Positions 26,107-33,600 of a stretch of 36,236 bases of DNA are shown in pieces. The translations under genes were made by a program, and so were the position numbers. The notes under the pieces are model-generated. The model did not search any database, was not told where the DNA came from, and was given only the letters and a program-made list of their open reading frames with translations. Source of the stretch: Microbacterium sp. (GTDB lineage Bacteria; Actinomycetota; Actinomycetes; Actinomycetales; Microbacteriaceae); NCBI GenBank assembly GCA_031178475.1, contig JAPSIX010000003.1, positions 1-36,236 on the forward strand. Reading direction: 5' to 3'. Each line of letters begins with the position of its first letter. Position 1 is the first letter of the stretch.

Positions 26107-26706
26107 TCAACCTTTACGGAGCCGTTCCCACAGGGCATCCGTCTGCGCGTGGGTCTCGTCGAGTGAGCCTCCGGTGTCGATCACCACGTCGGCGACCGCG
26201 CGACGCTCGTCGTCGGAGACCTGCGCATCGATCCGCTCGCGCGCGGAGCGCTCGTCGAGGCCGCGCAGCTCGACAAGCCGGCGGCGCCGCACCTCGGCGG
26301 GTGCGTGGGCGACCACGATGAGATCCCACGGGTCGTCGACGCGCGCTTCGACCAACAGGGGCACGTCGTAGACGACCACTGCCGACGGGTCGTCATCGAT
26401 GGCCGCCTCGAAACGTCGCTGGGACTCTGCGCGCACGGCGGGGTGCACGATGGCGTTCAGCCGCGCGAGCTGTTCGGGGTCGCCGAACACTCTGCTCCCG
26501 AGTGCCGCCCTGTCCAGCGCACCGTCCGGCGTGATCACCTCGGTGCCGAAGACCTCGGCGATGCGCTGCAGCACCGCCGAACCCGGCTGCTGCACGTCAC
26601 GCACGATCTGGTCGGCATCGACGACGACCGCTCCGTGCTCGGCGAGTCGTCGTGCGATCGTGGACTTTCCCGACGCTATCCCGCCGGTAAGTGCGATGAG
26701 GGGCAT
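26107..26706 (-). CDS. coaE: Dephospho-CoA kinase
   Basis: A 199-residue kinase that phosphorylates the 3'-hydroxyl of dephospho-CoA, the last step of coenzyme A synthesis. The P-loop GGIASGKST is at residues 8-16, followed by VVDADQIVRD and the lid-associated YDVPLLVE. The start is fixed by MPLIALTGG, the family N-terminus; upstream codons are a frame extension. A CAGGAT box lies six bases before the ATG. In many actinobacteria rpsA precedes coaE directly; here about 5.4 kb of other genes intervene. Confidence 0.95.
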   Translation of the reverse strand: MPLIALTGGIASGKSTIARRLAEHGAVVVDADQIVRDVQQPGSAVLQRIAEVFGTEVITPDGALDRAALGSRVFGDPEQLARLNAIVHPAVRAESQRRFEAAIDDDPSAVVVYDVPLLVEARVDDPWDLIVVAHAPAEVRRRRLVELRGLDERSARERIDAQVSDDERRAVADVVIDTGGSLDETHAQTDALWERLRKG

Positions 26707-26712
26707 ATCACC

Positions 26713-26718
26713 ATCCTG
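26713..26718 (-). promoter_or_regulatory. Possible -10 box of coaE
   Basis: CAGGAT on the minus strand, six bases before the ATG. The first base departs from TANNNT, so this is weaker than the others; GGTGAT between them could also serve as a poor ribosome binding site. Confidence 0.4.
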
Positions 26719-26793
26719 GCACGCGGTCGGCAGGCATTCGGAGATGCGGAGGGGCCATCGCCTTCTCGAAGCCTGACCAGAACGCGCGTGGCG

Positions 26794-26821
26794 CTTGAGC
26801 CTCCCTTGAGGATCGCCTGAG
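26794..26821 (+). promoter_or_regulatory. Three 11-bp-phased direct repeats, probable OmpR-type regulator site
   Basis: CTTGAG at 26794, CTTGAG at 26805 and CCTGAG at 26816 are spaced exactly 11 bases apart, one helical turn. A further weaker CCTGAC starts at 26772, exactly two periods upstream. OmpR/PhoB-family regulators bind tandem half-sites with this period. The repeats cover the -35 region of the promoter whose -10 is at 26832, and the -35 hexamer itself is poor, as expected for an activated promoter. The response regulator encoded at 28463-29221 is the obvious candidate. Confidence 0.65.
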
Positions 26822-26831
26822 GGTCGCTTTC

Positions 26832-26837
26832 TACGCT
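26832..26837 (+). promoter_or_regulatory. -10 box of the TasA-like operon
   Basis: TACGCT, with transcription expected to begin near 26844, just before a large hairpin. The last direct repeat ends ten bases upstream. Confidence 0.5.
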
Positions 26838-26845
26838 GGAGGCAA

Positions 26846-26893
26846 CGTTCGGCAGGACACACCCGAGGGAGTCGGCTCCCGTCCTGCCGAACG
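26846..26893 (+). promoter_or_regulatory. Large hairpin at the mRNA 5' end of the TasA-like operon
   Basis: CGTTCGGCAGGAC (26846-26858) pairs perfectly over 13 bases with GTCCTGCCGAACG (26881-26893). An inner GGGAG/CTCCC stem with loop TCGG (26867-26880) is nested inside. The structure begins within a few bases of the predicted transcription start and leaves the ribosome binding site (AAAGG) free. It may stabilise the mRNA or be regulatory. Confidence 0.7.
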
Positions 26894-26918
26894 ACCTCCC
26901 CACCCTGAAAGGCATGAC

Positions 26919-27491
26919 ATGAACAGCCCGCACACCCGGCCGGAGCCCGGGAGAGTCGACCCCAGTGCCGCCGATGAGCGCGACCGCCACAGCCGTCGTC
27001 GGCCCGTGCTCGCCTTCGCGCTCGCCACAGTCGCTCTCGGCGGCGTCGGCGCGGCGATCACCACCGCGGCATGGACCGACGACGTCTTCTTCTCCGGACA
27101 TGCCGGAGCCGCCGTCTTCACCCTCAAAGGCTCGCTGGACGGCACCACCTTCACCACGTCGAACGACGTGAACGAGATCAACCTCAGCATCCCGTCCGAT
27201 CGGCTCTCGAACCTTCTCCCCGGTCAGACGCGCACGATCGATCTGTGGGTCACGAACGCCGGTTCGGTGAACGCCGCACTGGTCGGGTCAGCGTCCTTCC
27301 GGGAGTCGACGTTCGCCACCGACCCGACCGTCGCCCTCACTGACCTCGCGGCAACCCTGACGCCGGTGTCCACGAGCGGCGCCACCGACAAGTTCCAGCT
27401 GACGCTCACGACCCCGCTCGACTGGAGTGTGCTGAACCAGACCGGCTCCGGGCAGATCGTCGTGACGATCACCGGCACCGCGACCGCCTGA
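26919..27491 (+). CDS. TasA/camelysin-like secreted protein with SipW-type signal peptide
   Basis: A 190-residue secreted protein. The N-terminus is long and basic (RDRHSRRR), followed by a hydrophobic segment (about 30-50) and AAWTDDVFFSGHAGAAVF, the pattern of SipW-dependent signal peptides; cleavage is expected around residues 46-51. The mature part is a Thr/Ser-rich beta protein with LPGQTRTIDLWVTNAGSV, like the TasA/CalY family that forms fibres or surface-bound proteins in Bacillus. AAAGG lies six bases before the ATG. It is followed by its probable signal peptidase. Fibre formation here is inference. Confidence 0.82.
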   Translation: MNSPHTRPEPGRVDPSAADERDRHSRRRPVLAFALATVALGGVGAAITTAAWTDDVFFSGHAGAAVFTLKGSLDGTTFTTSNDVNEINLSIPSDRLSNLLPGQTRTIDLWVTNAGSVNAALVGSASFRESTFATDPTVALTDLAATLTPVSTSGATDKFQLTLTTPLDWSVLNQTGSGQIVVTITGTATA

Positions 27492-27538
27492 CGTCGCAGG
27501 ACGATGGGACGCCGCCGAAGCGCCGAGAGGAGATCGCT

Positions 27539-28087
27539 GTGTTGATCCTGCGCCGCGCCGCGCTCAGCGCGCTCTGGTTGCTCGCCGCCGTCGGAGTGCT
27601 CTGCGGACTGATGTGGTGCGCGACCGCCGCCGGTCTCCTGAAGCCGCTGATCGTCGTCTCCGGCTCGATGGAGCCCGAGATCATGACCGGCGACCTGCTG
27701 ATCGACGTCAAGGTCGACACCGGGTCGCTGCAACCCGGCGATGTGGTGAGCCTGAGATCCGATCTCACCCAGGACATCGTCACGCATCGCATCGTAAGCA
27801 TCCGCCAGGTGAGCGACGACGAGTATCGCATCGCCATGAAAGGAGATGTGAACGATGCCTCAGACCCCCTCGACTACGTCGTGGGTGAGACGGTGTGGCA
27901 GCCGACGGCGCGACTGGCTGGGTGGGGACGCATCCTTCAGCGCATCGCGACGCCCGCCGTGGCCGTTCCCCTGGTGGTGGGCATGCTGGGCCTCGTCGGC
28001 CTGGCGACTCTGATTCCTGCCCCGGTGCGACGCCACCGGGGCACGGCCGACGACGCGGCGGAGCCGAAGCAGGACGCGCTCTCGTGA
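27539..28087 (+). CDS. Signal peptidase I, SipW/Sec11 type
   Basis: A 182-residue membrane protease. Membrane helices lie at about 8-30 and 137-160. The nucleophile is Ser43 in VSGSMEPEI; the second catalytic residue is His83 in VTHRIV rather than the lysine of ordinary bacterial signal peptidases, with Asp103 or Asp106 in KGDVNDASDP. This Ser-His form is the archaeal/ER-like class to which Bacillus SipW belongs. AGAGGAGA precedes the GTG start. It lies 47 bases after the TasA-like gene and overlaps the next gene by four bases, so it very likely processes both neighbours. Confidence 0.9.
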   Translation: MLILRRAALSALWLLAAVGVLCGLMWCATAAGLLKPLIVVSGSMEPEIMTGDLLIDVKVDTGSLQPGDVVSLRSDLTQDIVTHRIVSIRQVSDDEYRIAMKGDVNDASDPLDYVVGETVWQPTARLAGWGRILQRIATPAVAVPLVVGMLGLVGLATLIPAPVRRHRGTADDAAEPKQDALS

Positions 28088-28350
28088 GCGCGCGCTTCGA
28101 CTCCGCCGCTGTCGTCCCCTCCGTGGCGGCGGCCCTCGCGGTCGGCACCCTGCTCCTCGGGGCGGCCGCCATCCGGTCGACGCATGCCGGCTGGAACGAC
28201 TCGGTTCTGATCGGCGCGCACGCGACGGCCGCGGTGTGGAGCGTCCTCGCGCTCGCGGGCCTCAGCGAGTCGCCGACCGGCAGCGACCAGGACACGGTGT
28301 CAATGGACGAAACCGCGTCGCTAGACAGGACGGTGTCCGCGGATGAATGA
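28084..28350 (+). CDS. 88-residue stub paralogue of the TasA-like protein
   Basis: The start GTG overlaps the signal peptidase stop (GTGA). After a hydrophobic segment (about 10-31) comes GWNDSVLIGAHATAAVWSV, which aligns with AWTDDVFFSGHAGAAVFTL of the upstream secreted protein: W, D, V, HA and AAV are shared. The beta-rich body of that protein is missing and replaced by a short acidic Ser/Thr tail (SMDETASLDRTVSADE). It could be a minor secreted or anchoring subunit, a regulatory peptide, or a decayed copy. Conserved overlaps on both sides argue that it is translated. The name is my inference. Confidence 0.65.
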   Translation: MSARFDSAAVVPSVAAALAVGTLLLGAAAIRSTHAGWNDSVLIGAHATAAVWSVLALAGLSESPTGSDQDTVSMDETASLDRTVSADE

Positions 28351-28395
28351 GAGCGCCGTCACAGGACGCCCCGGCGAGTCATTCCTGAGGCGGTT

Positions 28396-28412
28396 CCGCG
28401 ATATCATCGCGG
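28396..28412 (+). promoter_or_regulatory. Inverted repeat over a -10 box before the response regulator
   Basis: CCGCGAT-ATC-ATCGCGG is a perfect 7-base inverted repeat with a three-base centre. TATCAT within it (28402-28407) fits a -10 box, giving a leader of about 50 bases to the ATG at 28463. A protein bound here would block this promoter. It lies inside the longer open frame that precedes the regulator. Confidence 0.45.
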
Positions 28413-28462
28413 ATACCGTCGATTCGAGCGGGCACGGCGCGAGGTCTGCAGGGAGTGTGTCG

Positions 28463-29221
28463 ATGGCGGGTCCCCATTCCGCGGTCGTCGTCGAGGACGA
28501 TCGCGACATCCGCATCCTCATCTCAGAGATTCTGGAGCAGGCCGGATTCACCGTGCACGCGGCGGCCTCCGGTCTCGAGGGAATCAAGTTGGTCACCGAG
28601 CACCAGCCGGTCGTCACCACCCTGGACGTCAGCATGCCGGGGATGGACGGCTTCGAGACCGCCAAGCGTATCCGTGCCGTGAGCGGCACCTACATCGTCA
28701 TGCTGACCGCACGCGCGGACGAGATCGACACATTGCAGGGTCTGCAGTCGGGGGCCGACGATTACATCACCAAGCCGTTCCGTCCCCGCGAGTTGCGGGC
28801 CAGGGTGGAAGCGATGCTGCGGAGGCCGCGAGCAGTGGCGGCGGGTCAGCCGCAGGCACCATCGTCCGCGATCCAGACCGCAGCCCTGGATCACGAGGCG
28901 AATGGCTGGCTCTCCCATCGAGGTCTTCGGCTGCACAGGGACATGCGAGTGACGTCGGTGGGCGACATGGAACTCGAACTGACCCGCAGTGAGTTCGACA
29001 TCCTCTACGAGATCATGTACGCCGGTCGACGGGTCGTCAGCAAGCGCGAGCTCGTCCTCGCTCTGCGGGGCGACGAGGGCCATGACTATGTCAGCGAGCA
29101 CGACACCAGGACGATCGAAGTGCACGTCGCGAACCTGCGGCGCAAACTGGGCGAATCCGCTGCCGACCCGCAATGGATCGAGACCCTCCGCGGCGTCGGT
29201 TACCGCCTCACCGCGTCCTGA
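28463..29221 (+). CDS. OmpR/PhoB-family response regulator
   Basis: A 252-residue two-component regulator. The receiver domain (about 6-122) has the acidic pocket Glu11-Asp12-Asp13, phosphorylated Asp55 in TLDVSMPGMDG, Thr82 and Lys104 (ITKPF). After a linker the winged-helix DNA-binding domain (about 155-250) contains LTRSEFDILYEI and RTIEVHVANLRRKLG. I start it at MAGPHSAV, with AGGGAG upstream; an earlier in-frame ATG at 28343 overlaps the preceding gene and would add 40 residues unlike a receiver domain. Its partner is probably the kinase at 30382-32013, and its target the repeats at 26794-26821. Confidence 0.9.
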   Translation: MAGPHSAVVVEDDRDIRILISEILEQAGFTVHAAASGLEGIKLVTEHQPVVTTLDVSMPGMDGFETAKRIRAVSGTYIVMLTARADEIDTLQGLQSGADDYITKPFRPRELRARVEAMLRRPRAVAAGQPQAPSSAIQTAALDHEANGWLSHRGLRLHRDMRVTSVGDMELELTRSEFDILYEIMYAGRRVVSKRELVLALRGDEGHDYVSEHDTRTIEVHVANLRRKLGESAADPQWIETLRGVGYRLTAS

Positions 29222-29224
29222 ACG

Positions 29225-30385
29225 TCAGTGCGCCTCCGCGATCACGACCGATGTGTCGGAGCTGGCCGCGGACGCCGCCGCCGCAGCTCGTGCGGCGTTC
29301 ATGAGCGCGGCGCCATCGTACCCCGCCGAACTGGTCAGGGCGACGCCGACCCCCATCATCGGGATCACCACGCTGCCGGCATCGGCGAAGTCATCGAGCA
29401 GTTGGCGATGCACCAGGCTTGCCGTGCGTCGGGCATCTCCCACCGAGGTCGCTGGGAAACACACCATGACGGTGAACGGGCCGTCGTCCCCTGCAAATGA
29501 AAAGGTGGGCGAGTATCGGCGAACGCCTGCCCGCCATTGAGCGGTCAGTTCCTCCTGCTCGGCCCGTCCGAACGCTGAGCGGATCTGTGCCATGTCCTCG
29601 ATGGTCAGCGCGAGCACTGCGACCAGTTCCGAGCGCTTCCGCGCGCTCTTGACCGTTCCGGTCAGGATGCGTTCGAAGGAGCTACCGCTGAGCACGCCGT
29701 CGTGCGCCATCGACAGGGACCCGGTGTGTTCTTCGCGCTCGAGCTGCCCCGCACGCAGGGTAGACACTGTGACGACGGAGACGATAGTCATGACGGTCGT
29801 GAGGATGCCGGTCGCGTGCGAGCCGAGCCACGTGGAGAACACTTGGCCGCTCGGGCCTTCGCCGATGAAGAGCACCGCCCGAGCGATATAGAAGGCGGCC
29901 GCCGCGGCGAGCACAATCGTCAGGCTCATCGAGATCGGCACCTTGCCCATCGGCGCGGTGCGGGATTCCATCGCGCCGAACACGCCGAACGCGGCCGTGC
30001 CGAGAAACATCACTGTTGCGCCCGCCCAGTCGCCCCCATCGGGCCCGCCGAGCAAGACCGCTGCCGCCGCCACGAGGGCGCTCGCCGCCACACAGGAGGC
30101 GGGAAGCAAACCGCCACGGCCGTTGTACACGCGGCATCCGAGCCAGAGCAGCCCGGCTGATGCGACGAGGGCGCCGTTGCCCACCGCGATCGCGACCCAC
30201 GGGTCGGGAAGCACAGTCCAGATCAGGTACGACAGCGTCGTCAGCATGCCACCCAGAAAGGCGAGCGCCCAAACCCGACCTGCGCCGTGGTCTCTGCGCA
30301 GGAGCGTCTCGAGCAGGAAGACGATTCCGCTGGTGAAGACGACGAGCGCCGTCATGAGAGTAAGGGTGAACAGATCGAGCGTCAC
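29225..30385 (-). CDS. Seven-helix membrane protein with degenerate GGDEF-like domain
   Basis: A 386-residue protein. About seven membrane helices fill residues 8-210. The cytoplasmic part (about 235-375) looks like a GGDEF domain by layout: an N-terminal SSFERILTGTVKSARK, a central motif FAGDDGPFTVMV where GGDEF should be (299-304 reads GDDGPF), and a final GVGVAL followed by DGAALMNAARAAAAA like the end of the fold. Without the intact motif it is unlikely to make cyclic di-GMP and may only bind a ligand or the kinase. The GTG start overlaps the kinase stop (GTGA) after GAGGAGGAG. It converges on the response regulator with three bases between. Confidence 0.7.
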   Translation of the reverse strand: MTLDLFTLTLMTALVVFTSGIVFLLETLLRRDHGAGRVWALAFLGGMLTTLSYLIWTVLPDPWVAIAVGNGALVASAGLLWLGCRVYNGRGGLLPASCVAASALVAAAAVLLGGPDGGDWAGATVMFLGTAAFGVFGAMESRTAPMGKVPISMSLTIVLAAAAAFYIARAVLFIGEGPSGQVFSTWLGSHATGILTTVMTIVSVVTVSTLRAGQLEREEHTGSLSMAHDGVLSGSSFERILTGTVKSARKRSELVAVLALTIEDMAQIRSAFGRAEQEELTAQWRAGVRRYSPTFSFAGDDGPFTVMVCFPATSVGDARRTASLVHRQLLDDFADAGSVVIPMMGVGVALTSSAGYDGAALMNAARAAAAASAASSDTSVVIAEAH

Positions 30386-32013
30386 CGCGCTCCTCCTCGT
30401 GGGTCGTGCGCGGGAAGGCGGACGATGAAAGTGGTGCCCTCGCCGAAGACGCTCCGCACGGTGATCTCGCCGCCGTGGGAGCGGACGATGTCCTTGCTGA
30501 TGGCGAGTCCGAGGCCGCTGCCGTGGGTCGAGGTGTTGCGCACGGTCTCGGAGCGGAAGAAGCGCTGAAAGAGGCTGGGCTGCTCCTGCTCCGAGATCCC
30601 CGGACCGTCGTCGCGGACGACGATCCAGGCGTGCGGGCCGTCCTGTGCCGTGCCAACTTCGACATGCCCGCTGTCGAAGTTGTACTTGATGGCGTTCGCA
30701 AGGAGGTTGTCGACGACCTGGCGGATCCGCTGGGGATCGGCATGGGCGATAGCGCGCTCGATACCTACGGCGTCGATCGATATCCGCCGTTCGCGCGCGT
30801 AGGGTTCCACGGCTTCCACAGCCCCGCGGACCACCGGCGCGAGGTCCACGGTCTCAGGATGGATCGACAGATCAACGCCCTTCTGCGACCCCGCCGCGAC
30901 GGCGAGGATGTCGGCGATCAGATCGAGCAGTCGCTGCGCGTTGCGTTCGGCGACCTCGAGGCTGCGCCGCGTGGAATCAGGGACGGCAGGATCCTCCATC
31001 GCGAGTTCCACATAGCCGATCACCGAGGTGAGGGGCGTTCGCAGCTCATGTGAGACCGAGGCGAGCAAGTCATCCCGTGCGCGCAGCGCCAGCTCTTCCG
31101 CGGTGACATCCCTCGTGACGATGAGCGTCCCGGCGTCGCGGACGTCCGGGGCGGTGATGCGCCGCGCTGTGGAGCGCAGTGCGCGGCGCGCTTCTCCCGG
31201 TTCGCCGTACCAGGCGAGCTCGTTCTCGAACAGCTCGCCGCGTCGCGCCCGCGCGAGCGGAAGCGACCCCGGGTCGCGCGGAGTGATTCCGTCTGCAGCG
31301 TAGGCGGTCTTTGTCGGCGCGGCGGCCTTCTGTAGGCGGGCATGCGCATCGTTCGCGACCACCATGTCACCGTCCGCGCTGAGCCGGATCACCCCGAAGT
31401 CCACCGCGTCGAGTACATCGCTGACCAGATCCTCCTGCCGCCGGGCACGTGCCATCGACTGCTGCAGATGACGGGACTGCTTGTCGAGGACCAATCGCTG
31501 TGCGGTCGCTCGCCGGGCGCCGAGGTAGGACATGGCTGACAGGGCAGCCAGCAGCAGAGGAAGCAGGAAGACTTGGGGGCCGGTGACGTTGGCGGGGTTC
31601 ATGAAGATGGCGAGCGTGAAGATCAGGCACATGAGAACGACGGCCCACGCCGCCCCCAGCATCCCGAACACCGACGCGATCCACATGGCGGGAAACGTCC
31701 AGATCAAACCAAGCAGTGCACTCGGGGCCGCATCCCGCAGCACCGCGACGGCGAACACGTCGAGAACGGGTATGAGCAGCATCGTCCACGGTTGGAGGCG
31801 CCCCCATGGGAGCGACACTGCCATGCCAGTTCCCAGGAACACGATGGCGGTTCCGATGACGAGCTTCGACCCGTCGCCCACCATGTCGAACATGAGGACG
31901 AGCGCCACTGCCAGGATCACCACCGCCCCGAACAGCAGCTGATTGAGAAGGATCGAACGTCCACGGGAACGATCGGCGGCACGCGCGCGACGTAGGGCCG
32001 TGGATGTGGGCAT
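30382..32013 (-). CDS. Membrane sensor histidine kinase
   Basis: A 543-residue kinase. Six membrane helices lie at about 22-165, with very short loops, so the signal is probably sensed within the membrane. A coiled segment (about 170-200) leads into a PAS-like domain (about 200-305). The HisKA domain has phospho-accepting His322 in SVSHELRTPLTSVIGY; the ATPase domain has the N box with Asn440 (LLANAIKYN), RDDGPGI and GSGLGLAISK. It is transcribed with the degenerate GGDEF gene. A TAGCGT box lies six bases before the ATG, suggesting a leaderless mRNA. Confidence 0.93.
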   Translation of the reverse strand: MPTSTALRRARAADRSRGRSILLNQLLFGAVVILAVALVLMFDMVGDGSKLVIGTAIVFLGTGMAVSLPWGRLQPWTMLLIPVLDVFAVAVLRDAAPSALLGLIWTFPAMWIASVFGMLGAAWAVVLMCLIFTLAIFMNPANVTGPQVFLLPLLLAALSAMSYLGARRATAQRLVLDKQSRHLQQSMARARRQEDLVSDVLDAVDFGVIRLSADGDMVVANDAHARLQKAAAPTKTAYAADGITPRDPGSLPLARARRGELFENELAWYGEPGEARRALRSTARRITAPDVRDAGTLIVTRDVTAEELALRARDDLLASVSHELRTPLTSVIGYVELAMEDPAVPDSTRRSLEVAERNAQRLLDLIADILAVAAGSQKGVDLSIHPETVDLAPVVRGAVEAVEPYARERRISIDAVGIERAIAHADPQRIRQVVDNLLANAIKYNFDSGHVEVGTAQDGPHAWIVVRDDGPGISEQEQPSLFQRFFRSETVRNTSTHGSGLGLAISKDIVRSHGGEITVRSVFGEGTTFIVRLPAHDPRGGAR

Positions 32014-32019
32014 GAGGGC

Positions 32020-32025
32020 ACGCTA
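32020..32025 (-). promoter_or_regulatory. -10 box of the sensor kinase operon
   Basis: TAGCGT on the minus strand, six bases (GCCCTC) before the ATG. Confidence 0.5.
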
Positions 32026-32091
32026 TCGGCGGGGAACCATCCGGTAAGGCCATATGACGCCTGACCGTGTCGTGGGGCATCCGGAGACGCG

Positions 32092-32134
32092 GAACGGGCC
32101 GCCACCCGCCCGAAGGCGAGGTGACGGCCCGTTC
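32092..32134 (-). terminator. Terminator after rpsA
   Basis: GAACGGGCCG (32092-32101) pairs with CGGCCCGTTC (32125-32134), and the stem continues inward after one mismatch with CACC/GGTG. It starts 11 bases after the rpsA stop codon. Confidence 0.8.
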
Positions 32135-32145
32135 TGACGGTGCGC

Positions 32146-33600
32146 TTACGCGTTGCCGCCCGAGAGCTTCTCGCGCAGAGCGGCGAGAGCCTCGTCGTCG
32201 GCGAGCGTACCGGCACCGGTGGTGTCGGTGGAGAAGGTCTGGCCACCGAAGTCCTCGGTAGCGGTGGTCTCGGCCTCTGCGGCCTTGAGCACCTGAGCCT
32301 TGTGCGCTTCCCAGCGGGCCTGGGCAGCGGCGTACTCCTGCTCCCATGCCTCGCGCTGAGCCTCGAAGCCTTCCTTCCAGGCACCCGTCTCGGGGTCGAA
32401 GCCCTCGGGGTACTTGTACTCGCCGTTCTCGTCGTACTCGGCGAGCATGCCGTACAGGGCCGGGTCGAACTCGGTGCCGTGGGGGTCGACCGACTCGTTC
32501 GCCTGCTTCAGCGACAGCGAGATGCGGCGACGCTCGAGGTCGATGTCGATGACCTTGACGAAGACCTCTTCGCCCACCGACACGACCTGCTCGGCCAGCT
32601 CGACGTGCTTGCTGGAGAGCTCGGAGATGTGGACGAGGCCCTCGATGCCGTCTGCGACGCGCACGAACGCACCGAACGGAACGAGCTTGGTGACCTTACC
32701 CGGGGTGACCTGGCCGATGGCGTGGGTGCGGGCGAAGACCTGCCACGGGTCCTCCTGCGTCGCCTTCAGCGACAGGGAGACGCGCTCGCGGTCGAGGTCC
32801 ACCTCGAGAATCTCGACGGTGACCTCCTGGCCGACCTCGACGACCTCGGATGCGTGCTCGATGTGCTTCCAGGACAGCTCGGAGACGTGCACGAGGCCGT
32901 CCACGCCGCCCAGGTCGACGAAGGCGCCGAAGTTGACGATCGAGGACACGACGCCCTTGCGGACCTGACCCTTGTGCAGGTTGTTCAGGAACGTGGTGCG
33001 CGACTCGGACTGCGTCTGCTCGAGCAGGGCGCGGCGGCTGAGAACCACGTTGTTGCGGTTCTTGTCCAGCTCGAGGATCTTCGCCTCGAGCTCCTGACCC
33101 AGGTACGGCGTGAGGTCGCGGACGCGGCGCAGCTCGATGAGCGACGCGGGGAGGAAGCCACGGAGGCCGATGTCGACGATGAGACCGCCCTTGACGACCT
33201 CGATGACGGTGCCGGTGACGACGCCGTCGTTCTCCTTGATCTTCTCGACGTCGCCCCAGGCACGCTCGTACTGGGCGCGCTTCTTGGAGAGGATCAGACG
33301 GCCTTCCTTGTCCTCCTTCTGGAGAACGAGGGCCTCGACCTTGTCGCCGACGGCGACGACCTCGTTGGGGTCGACGTCGTGCTTGATGGAAAGCTCGCGG
33401 GAGGGGATAACACCCTCGGTCTTGTAGCCGACGTCGAGCAGAACCTCATCGCGGTCGATCTTGACGATCGTCCCCTCGATGATGTCGCCGTCGTTGAAGA
33501 ACTTCAGGGTCTTCTCGACCGCGGCCAGGAAGTCCTCAGCAGAGCCGATGTCGTTGATCGCGACCTGCTTGGTGGCCGGGGCGGTCGTTGCGCTAGTCAT
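32146..33600 (-). CDS. rpsA: 30S ribosomal protein S1
   Basis: A 484-residue RNA-binding protein with four S1 domains, at about residues 36-105, 122-190, 207-276 and 293-362, as usual in actinobacteria (E. coli has six). Typical signatures are GVIPSRELS, GFLPASLIELR, FGAFVDLGGVDGLVHVSELSW and FGAFVRVADGIEGLVHISELS. The C-terminal 120 residues are acidic and disordered, rich in Glu, Ala and aromatic residues (EYKYPEGFDPE). S1 helps mRNA bind the ribosome, which is notable in a genome with many leaderless mRNAs. AAGGA stands 12 bases before the ATG, at the far end of normal spacing. Confidence 0.97.
   Translation of the reverse strand: MTSATTAPATKQVAINDIGSAEDFLAAVEKTLKFFNDGDIIEGTIVKIDRDEVLLDVGYKTEGVIPSRELSIKHDVDPNEVVAVGDKVEALVLQKEDKEGRLILSKKRAQYERAWGDVEKIKENDGVVTGTVIEVVKGGLIVDIGLRGFLPASLIELRRVRDLTPYLGQELEAKILELDKNRNNVVLSRRALLEQTQSESRTTFLNNLHKGQVRKGVVSSIVNFGAFVDLGGVDGLVHVSELSWKHIEHASEVVEVGQEVTVEILEVDLDRERVSLSLKATQEDPWQVFARTHAIGQVTPGKVTKLVPFGAFVRVADGIEGLVHISELSSKHVELAEQVVSVGEEVFVKVIDIDLERRRISLSLKQANESVDPHGTEFDPALYGMLAEYDENGEYKYPEGFDPETGAWKEGFEAQREAWEQEYAAAQARWEAHKAQVLKAAEAETTATEDFGGQTFSTDTTGAGTLADDEALAALREKLSGGNA

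Follow-up and report, generated by a model that had tools for sequence, protein, structure and literature searches.

Gene organization between coaE and rpsA

We analysed a stretch of 36,236 nucleotides from Microbacterium sp. (assembly GCA_031178475.1, contig JAPSIX010000003.1, positions 1 to 36,236; the whole stretch is hereafter called the window), in which six genes for a secreted protein, its export and its putative control lie between coaE (26107-26706, minus strand) and rpsA (32146-33600, minus strand). The plus strand carries a 190-residue TasA-like secreted protein with a SipW-type signal (AAWTD; 26919-27491; here tasA), a 182-residue signal peptidase of the SipW/endoplasmic reticulum (ER) type with a Ser-His pair (27539-28087; sipW), an 88-residue stub (28084-28350) and, last in this unit, an OmpR-type response regulator (RR) with receiver and winged helix (28343-29221). 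Two minus-strand genes converge on them, encoding a membrane protein with six long predicted helices and a degenerate GGDEF domain (29225-30385; the GGDEF gene) and a histidine kinase (HK; 30382-32013). The sequence suggests that this block is probably a surface-fibre export operon, which is wired to its own two-component system and autoregulated.

All six genes lie where the initial annotation had placed them. Four of the five internal joints are overlaps or a 3-base gap, as it describes them (sipW-stub overlap 4 bp, stub-RR overlap 8 bp, RR-GGDEF gap 3 bp, GGDEF-HK overlap 4 bp); the exception is the pair tasA and sipW, which are 47 bp apart. The block is separated from coaE by 212 bp and from rpsA by 132 bp. 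The host assembly is a metagenome-assembled genome (MAG) of 2.19 Mb in 320 contigs.

A conserved repeat site precedes tasA and regulator genes

Upstream of tasA we found a predicted RR operator of three direct repeats with an 11-bp period (CTTGAG-N5-CTTGAG-N5-CCTGAG; 26794-26821, plus strand), followed, exactly 10 bases past the third repeat, by a predicted -10 element (TACGCT; 26832-26837, plus strand). This composite site, which we define as three CYTGAG repeats at 11-bp spacing, 10 bases and TANNNT, spans 26794-26837, occurs once in the window and never appeared in 20 shuffles. Its repeats carry 18 of 18 consensus letters, a score equalled by none of 300 shuffles, which were first-order Markov samples rather than exact shuffles, as throughout the repeat scoring and the pilin tests below. 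With up to two mismatches the three-repeat pattern has a single match in the assembly, and the reversed-pattern control has none. The predicted 5' leader of tasA contains a strong hairpin with a 13-bp stem inside (26838-26899, plus strand); in the window sequence, 26830-26930 gave -43.8 kcal/mol (z -4.43), reached by 0 of 200 shuffles.

Across the loci compared, the composite site precedes 16/16 tasA genes of this operon type tested and 12/14 full-length RR genes without tasA (it is missed at loci L098 and L139), versus 0/7 receiver-only RR genes and 0/2 unlinked tasA genes, which amounts to 28/30 versus 0/9 (Fisher p 2.6e-7). In this test gap ties were broken towards 10 bases, the RR window was set to 450 bp because an earlier 400 bp had missed L075 and L081, and L004, L059 and L060 (near-duplicates or a mis-called start) were omitted, as were L099 and L100; L004 has a repeat score of 17/18. 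The loci for the repeat scoring, the composite test and both trees described below were our choice from those retrieved, and gene calls in our scripts came from a simple open reading frame (ORF) picker, whose starts may be wrong. No upstream region of the kinase genes tested had a significant repeat site. Direct repeats at 11 bp fit OmpR/PhoB binding, making the RR the putative binder, and the export genes and RR seem to be read from one promoter that is probably controlled by the RR itself.

Downstream of the operator, the leaders of solo RR genes contain a conserved 49-nt hairpin with a loop near CGUGGGGRCG (L073:1043-1091, L075:6232-6280, L076:6125-6173, L077:6065-6113, L078:7070-7118, L079:1073-1121, L080:7058-7106 and L081:1104-1152). 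In the 8 sequences, 12 of 20 pairs show changes on both sides, which makes it a candidate structured RNA. An Rfam search at gathering thresholds of L073, L074, L077, L078, L080 and the window returned just two tRNAs, both in the window.

Signal peptidase, secreted protein and second substrate

The signal peptidase passes TIGR02228 (64.7 bits, cut-off 51.85) and fails the equivalog model of Bacillus SipW, NF046067 (48.8 bits, cut-off 190). Ser43 (in SGSM) and His83 (in VTHR), which we take to be the catalytic pair of SipW/ER-type signal peptidases, are invariant in 15/15 aligned sequences, in line with the Ser-His signal peptidase of the initial annotation.

The alignment of the secreted protein includes 15 homologues, of which two come from unlinked loci and are 27-30% identical. 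A structure model predicts a beta-sandwich for residues 63-190, with values of the predicted local distance difference test (pLDDT) below 50 at residues 16-56 and 59-61. The name TasA-like refers to the SipW-type signal peptide and this general fold and not to family models, since the protein reaches no Pfam or NCBIfam model, including PF12389 (TasA/camelysin), TIGR04088 and TIGR04089. Among the 16 aligned members, three match TIGR04088 (best E 0.011) and one matches TIGR04089 (E 0.43). The family profile gave a weak pilin match alone in the PDB (8qqj, E 0.017), and a fold search with the model placed the TasA fibre 8aur at rank 7, a weak match (E 0.031, probability 0.80, TMq 0.30). In the VIA fold comparison the matches were to beta-sandwiches, MSP/PapD-like ones among them, and reached Z 7.7 at best; TasA is absent among its best 50 rows, which proves nothing. 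A screen of Firmicutes SipW loci by regular expression for TasA-type neighbours gave one weak candidate (L006).

In relatives, the slot before the RR gene holds a second SipW-signal protein of 160-211 residues where it is called complete, and tblastn matches to the stub adjoin sipW in L050, L055, L056 and L063, inside larger genes. The stub retains the signal part and a short tail. Given the larger genes in this slot in relatives, we rejected the idea of a separate functional paralogue and regard the stub, initially annotated as a paralogue, as the truncated form of a second SipW-type substrate. In L049, L051, L054 and L057, the gene for this second substrate and the start of RR share 4 bp. 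A further protein of 178-196 residues with an LPXTG-type end is encoded in L049, L050, L051 and L057; of the two scanned, that of L050 exceeds the cut-offs of the LPXTG_anchor (19.9 vs 15.9) and LAVTG (27.1 vs 27) models and that of L049 lies just under the latter (25.3 vs 27). This LPXTG/sortase-type gene is missing from the window's block, which, given also the truncated stub, thus appears as a reduced version of a larger operon.

Regulator, kinase and GGDEF-like protein

Pfam, profile and model searches uphold the identities initially assigned to the three control proteins. The RR matches Response_reg (9.1e-30) and Trans_reg_C (9.7e-19), which places it in the OmpR/PhoB family, and its receiver contains the motif LDVSMPG, whose Asp is presumably the phospho-acceptor. 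MtrA is its best NCBIfam model (167.7 bits, under the cut-off of 300), and it carries an N-terminal extension, in which relatives have a similar motif. The HK shows six hydrophobic segments by hydropathy, a weak PAS match, HisKA and HATPase_c domains and H, N and G box motifs. The GGDEF protein matches Pfam GGDEF weakly (11.8 bits); searching with a profile built from 16 homologues recovered solved GGDEF domains (3ezu, E 3.6e-7), and the structure model shows a GGDEF fold behind the six long helices. By eye, the GG(D/E)EF signature of an active diguanylate cyclase is absent in 16/16 aligned sequences.

Some loci have receiver-only forms of the RR (117-126 residues; L082, L087, L089, L090, L091, L093, L177), which adjoin the same kinase and GGDEF protein and lack the operator. 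Some strains may have exchanged DNA binding for protein contact as the output of the RR. In other genera, the HK-GGDEF pair is accompanied by a GT2 glycosyltransferase (L140, L143, L145, L146, L149, L151, L155 and others), and several such loci add a lipoprotein and a small protein resembling HPt (in L146 it matches PF01627 at E 0.086, short of the cut-off), so that a phosphorelay to polysaccharide synthesis is possible. Loci with the control genes alone encode a small protein beside the kinase (L074:1926-2276, with similar genes in L073, L075, L076, L078, L081, L093 and L094), which in L074 scores just above the cut-off for T5orf172 (20.7 vs 20 bits) and below that for MUG113.

Distribution of the six genes in the genus

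In a sample of 198 Microbacterium genomes, 122 have a sipW match at E<=1e-5, and 17, including the window's, have a near relative (E <= 1.5e-30, next best 4.2e-19). The order tasA-sipW-RR-GGDEF-HK is found in 14 of these 17, the window's and 13 others, whose proteins are about 35-64% identical to those of the window; such recurrence is not chance. Among the 14, an extra RR-like gene separates coaE from tasA in G097, and the HK and rpsA genes of G090 appear broken. In G093 and G025, tasA-sipW is sited elsewhere.

The GGDEF gene is present in 111/198 genomes at E<=1e-5; three weak-only cases (G031, G035, G071) were excluded from the tests, leaving 108. A strong GGDEF match accompanies 16/17 near sipW relatives versus 92/181 of the other genomes (p 5e-4). 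Profile matches at E<=1e-15 occur in 72/249 genomes of the family and in 32/85 genera, some of them partial or without the kinase. In ten loci with the full layout, RR, GGDEF and HK distances intercorrelate strongly (Mantel r 0.85-0.90), and tasA and sipW distances correlate more weakly with them (r 0.39-0.63).

The six genes thus co-occur in relatives, yet are separable. That the export genes and the regulator belong together, as first proposed, is supported by the RR trailing tasA-sipW co-directionally in 14/17 genomes and by the shared operator-like site. "Self-contained" is accurate only in part: tasA-sipW lacks a neighbouring RR in 3/17 genomes and most GGDEF-gene genomes have no near sipW relative. 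A two-component system uniquely tied to export was rejected on the 92/181 genomes given above.

The coaE-rpsA interval

Interval counts cover the 121 of 198 genomes in which both coaE and rpsA were listed, 117 of them with both on one contig. The initial annotation holds the two genes to be near neighbours in many actinobacteria; here the gap is below 400 bp in 28/121, and the GGDEF gene lies between them in 50/121. Nine intervals contain a near sipW relative, eight of these with the GGDEF gene. Another 27 measure 6.76-6.85 kb without the GGDEF gene; two that we read (L084, L085) carry transport and metabolism genes (ABC-transporter, acs-like, met-like), and the same block follows tasA-sipW in G148 (L097). 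In another genus (g50), the interval of L139 holds a poor SipW-like gene, RR, GGDEF and HK.

A tree of rpsA+coaE from 44 loci requires 4 changes for the HK-GGDEF-RR module and at least 8 for tasA; the window's two nearest rows (L095, L096) as well as L084, L085 and L086 are without the module. A quick HK+GGDEF tree of 36 loci, from which L052 was omitted (same genome as L103), does not unite the tasA-bearing rows in one clade (p 5e-37) and requires 7 changes. G+C content is even across the block, a search of 26600-32250 yielded short or diverged repeats that do not enclose it, and no transposase was recognised among the block's ORFs, not all of which were searched against families. We read the control module as an old occupant of this spot that was repeatedly lost. 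As for the tasA operon, either it goes back to the ancestor and disappeared many times, or it was exchanged on several occasions. That the window's nearest rows have nothing of the block would equally fit a late gain.

The SipW-like gene before RR in L139 (L139:6597-7103) has STSAM in place of SGSM and reaches 26.5 bits against TIGR02228, below cut-off, and its product is perhaps inactive. L108 (G010), from a genome without a GGDEF match, has a distant SipW-like gene (34%) between coaE and rpsA.

Further sites and putative targets

A scan of the 198 genomes for three repeats with at most one mismatch returned 67 places, merged into 53 sites in 42 genomes; the reversed pattern gave 8. Within 700 bp of coaE lie 28 merged sites, and all but one of these, 27, belong to genomes with the GGDEF gene (p 1.3e-7, among the 150 genomes with coaE listed). 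The other 25 include three tasA promoters (G090, G097, G144) and 20 sites that we read in context; the context reading did not extend to the merged sites in G006 and G196. Four of the 20 precede pilin operons (L180, L181, L185, L192), all with N_methyl, and there the repeats are followed by N10 or N11 and TTGACA, which resembles a -35 element. Two are at GT2 loci, before the GT2 gene in L188 and before a lipoprotein gene beside GT2 in L198; three precede large secreted proteins (L179, L182, L183), one an RR (L195) and two small genes (L184, L186). Two reach a contig end, both with N10-TANNNT (L191, L193), and six are without evident target (L187, L189, L190, L194, L196, L197), that of L189 pointing away from a neighbouring secreted-protein gene.

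Pilin upstream regions have a site at p<=0.01 in 17/39 GGDEF-gene genomes versus 0/10 others (p 0.009), a threshold chosen while viewing the results; the test covered 49 of the 60 pilin genomes, with L235 (86 bases) omitted. In two Microbacterium genomes, HK-GGDEF-RR adjoins type IV pilus genes (L171, L172), with T2SSE and T2SSF confirmed in L171. Thirty-nine loci, mostly from other genera, contain 10 three-repeat sites in 648 kb, a count made without a shuffle control: seven before a GT2 gene in six genera (two overlapping), two before RR and one before a gene that precedes RR. In relatives, this regulator family probably acts on some type IV pilin operons and on the GT2 glycosyltransferase, which would make tasA-sipW one output of a surface switch.

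Discussion

How such an operon could work may be outlined as follows. The membrane kinase HK would respond to a signal by phosphorylating the RR, with the overlapping GGDEF-like membrane protein as its co-sensor, partner or nucleotide-binding brake. The RR would then bind the repeats as an OmpR/PhoB-type activator that replaces the -35 element, and would thereby raise its own level together with those of the TasA-like protein and SipW. SipW would cleave its substrates, which would be kept on the cell surface or assemble there. The output of this strain would be a reduced one, the sortase-type gene of some relatives being absent and the second substrate truncated.

Since similar switch sequences stand before pilus and sugar-polymer genes of relatives, this may be an undescribed control of surface structures. 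More tentatively, and with rather less confidence than for the operon itself, we propose that Microbacteriaceae possess an undescribed switch, composed of HK, a six-helix degenerate-GGDEF partner and an RR acting on three CYTGAG repeats, which coordinates type IV pili, SipW-exported fibres and a GT2 enzyme; in some strains, the fibre operon would lie between the RR's own promoter and the RR gene and so be autocatalytic.

Several observations weigh against these proposals. We regard the secreted protein as TasA-like in its setting rather than as a member of that family, homology to TasA being no more than putative; a preference for activation over repression is inferred from the spacing. The repeats are poor in the tasA promoters of L002 and L058 (13/18), 12 of 53 merged sites are not tied to a recognised target, 22 of 39 pilin upstream regions in GGDEF-gene genomes are without a significant site, and none of the seven GT2 sites carries N10-TANNNT. 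The linkage also has exceptions. G148 has tasA-sipW, the second substrate and the site, with no RR or HK beside them and no GGDEF match at E<=1e-5, so that the pairing of site and regulator is not strict; at another locus, that genome carries a paralogous RR-HK-GGDEF-like set (RR 55%). L002 has RR and HK and no GGDEF gene within its 20.5 kb, and 92 of the 108 GGDEF-gene genomes are without a near sipW relative. The source MAG, finally, is 77% complete.

The two halves of the block, an HK-GGDEF-RR module of old standing and a tasA-sipW operon as passenger, could be neighbours with no function in common at a variable spot between housekeeping genes. The variability of the interval, with its 28 short gaps and 27 intervals filled without the GGDEF gene, and the occurrence of each half without the other would suit this; we nevertheless consider it unlikely, as in several relatives the RR gene, joined by 4-bp overlaps, is the last of the tasA unit, and cargo and solo RR genes alike have the operator-like site upstream. 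Alternatively, the repeats could be bound by another OmpR-family regulator, with HK-GGDEF-RR as just one of its targets. G148, which retains the site without a local RR, would be accommodated, as would the paralogous RR-HK-GGDEF-like sets in G148, G025 and G013. The composite site, however, distinguishes full-length from receiver-only RR genes (12/14 vs 0/7), and the coaE-side sites are nearly confined to GGDEF-gene genomes (27/28), which leaves this account a low probability as well.

The initial annotation had viewed the block as an insertion between coaE and rpsA. A recent mobile insertion would agree with the module-free nearest rows of the window and with the eight or more changes of tasA on the tree, yet it appears very improbable: the module needs 4 changes and occupies the same spot in another genus, tasA-bearing HK+GGDEF sequences do not form one clade, G+C is even, and no framing repeats were found. 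With the GGDEF gene in 50/121 intervals and no long repeats at the borders, we rejected insertion as the leading explanation on interval counts, trees and repeat search, and favour an export operon that is controlled by its own regulator.

SipW/TasA-type fibres have been worked out in Bacillus, under SinR. Among open-access titles and abstract openings, to which our literature search extended (subscription papers lay outside it), we found no actinobacterial SipW operon under control of the kind proposed here, and nothing on the control of SipW sets or on fibre building in actinobacteria. The operator offers a way to list candidate surface genes across the family from sequence, and the system suggests what an orphan degenerate-GGDEF membrane protein, with relatives in 32 of 85 genus groups sampled, may do.

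Like tapA-sipW-tasA of Bacillus subtilis and sipW-tasA/calY of B. cereus, the block combines a Ser-His peptidase with one or two small secreted proteins bearing SipW signals. Bacillus operons of the tapA-sipW-tasA type are under SinR, according to PMC9674648 and PMC13082335, whereas here an OmpR-type RR ends the operon itself; in further contrast to Bacillus, relatives can carry an LPXTG-type gene, and no TasA/camelysin model matches the main protein. The "alternate-type signal peptide" proteins (TIGR04089/TIGR04088) are likewise SipW-dependent substrates beside a SipW gene, and in L157, from another genus, such a set adjoins an HK-GGDEF pair, but the window's protein does not match these models. 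The predicted operator resembles those of PhoB, OmpR and ArcA in its tandem repeats at 11 bp centre to centre; PMC3798270 gives two to five such repeats for ArcA sites and notes multiple repeats for OmpR and PhoB promoters. It differs from these in its CYTGAG unit, the number of three units and the unvarying distance of 10 bases between the repeats and a -10-like hexamer at tasA and RR promoters. The membrane protein, finally, resembles YfiN/TpbB in that a membrane part precedes its GGDEF domain (for the domain, TMt to TpbB is 0.82-0.86), and is set apart by its six long helices, a signature that is absent in 16 aligned sequences and a gene that overlaps the kinase gene.

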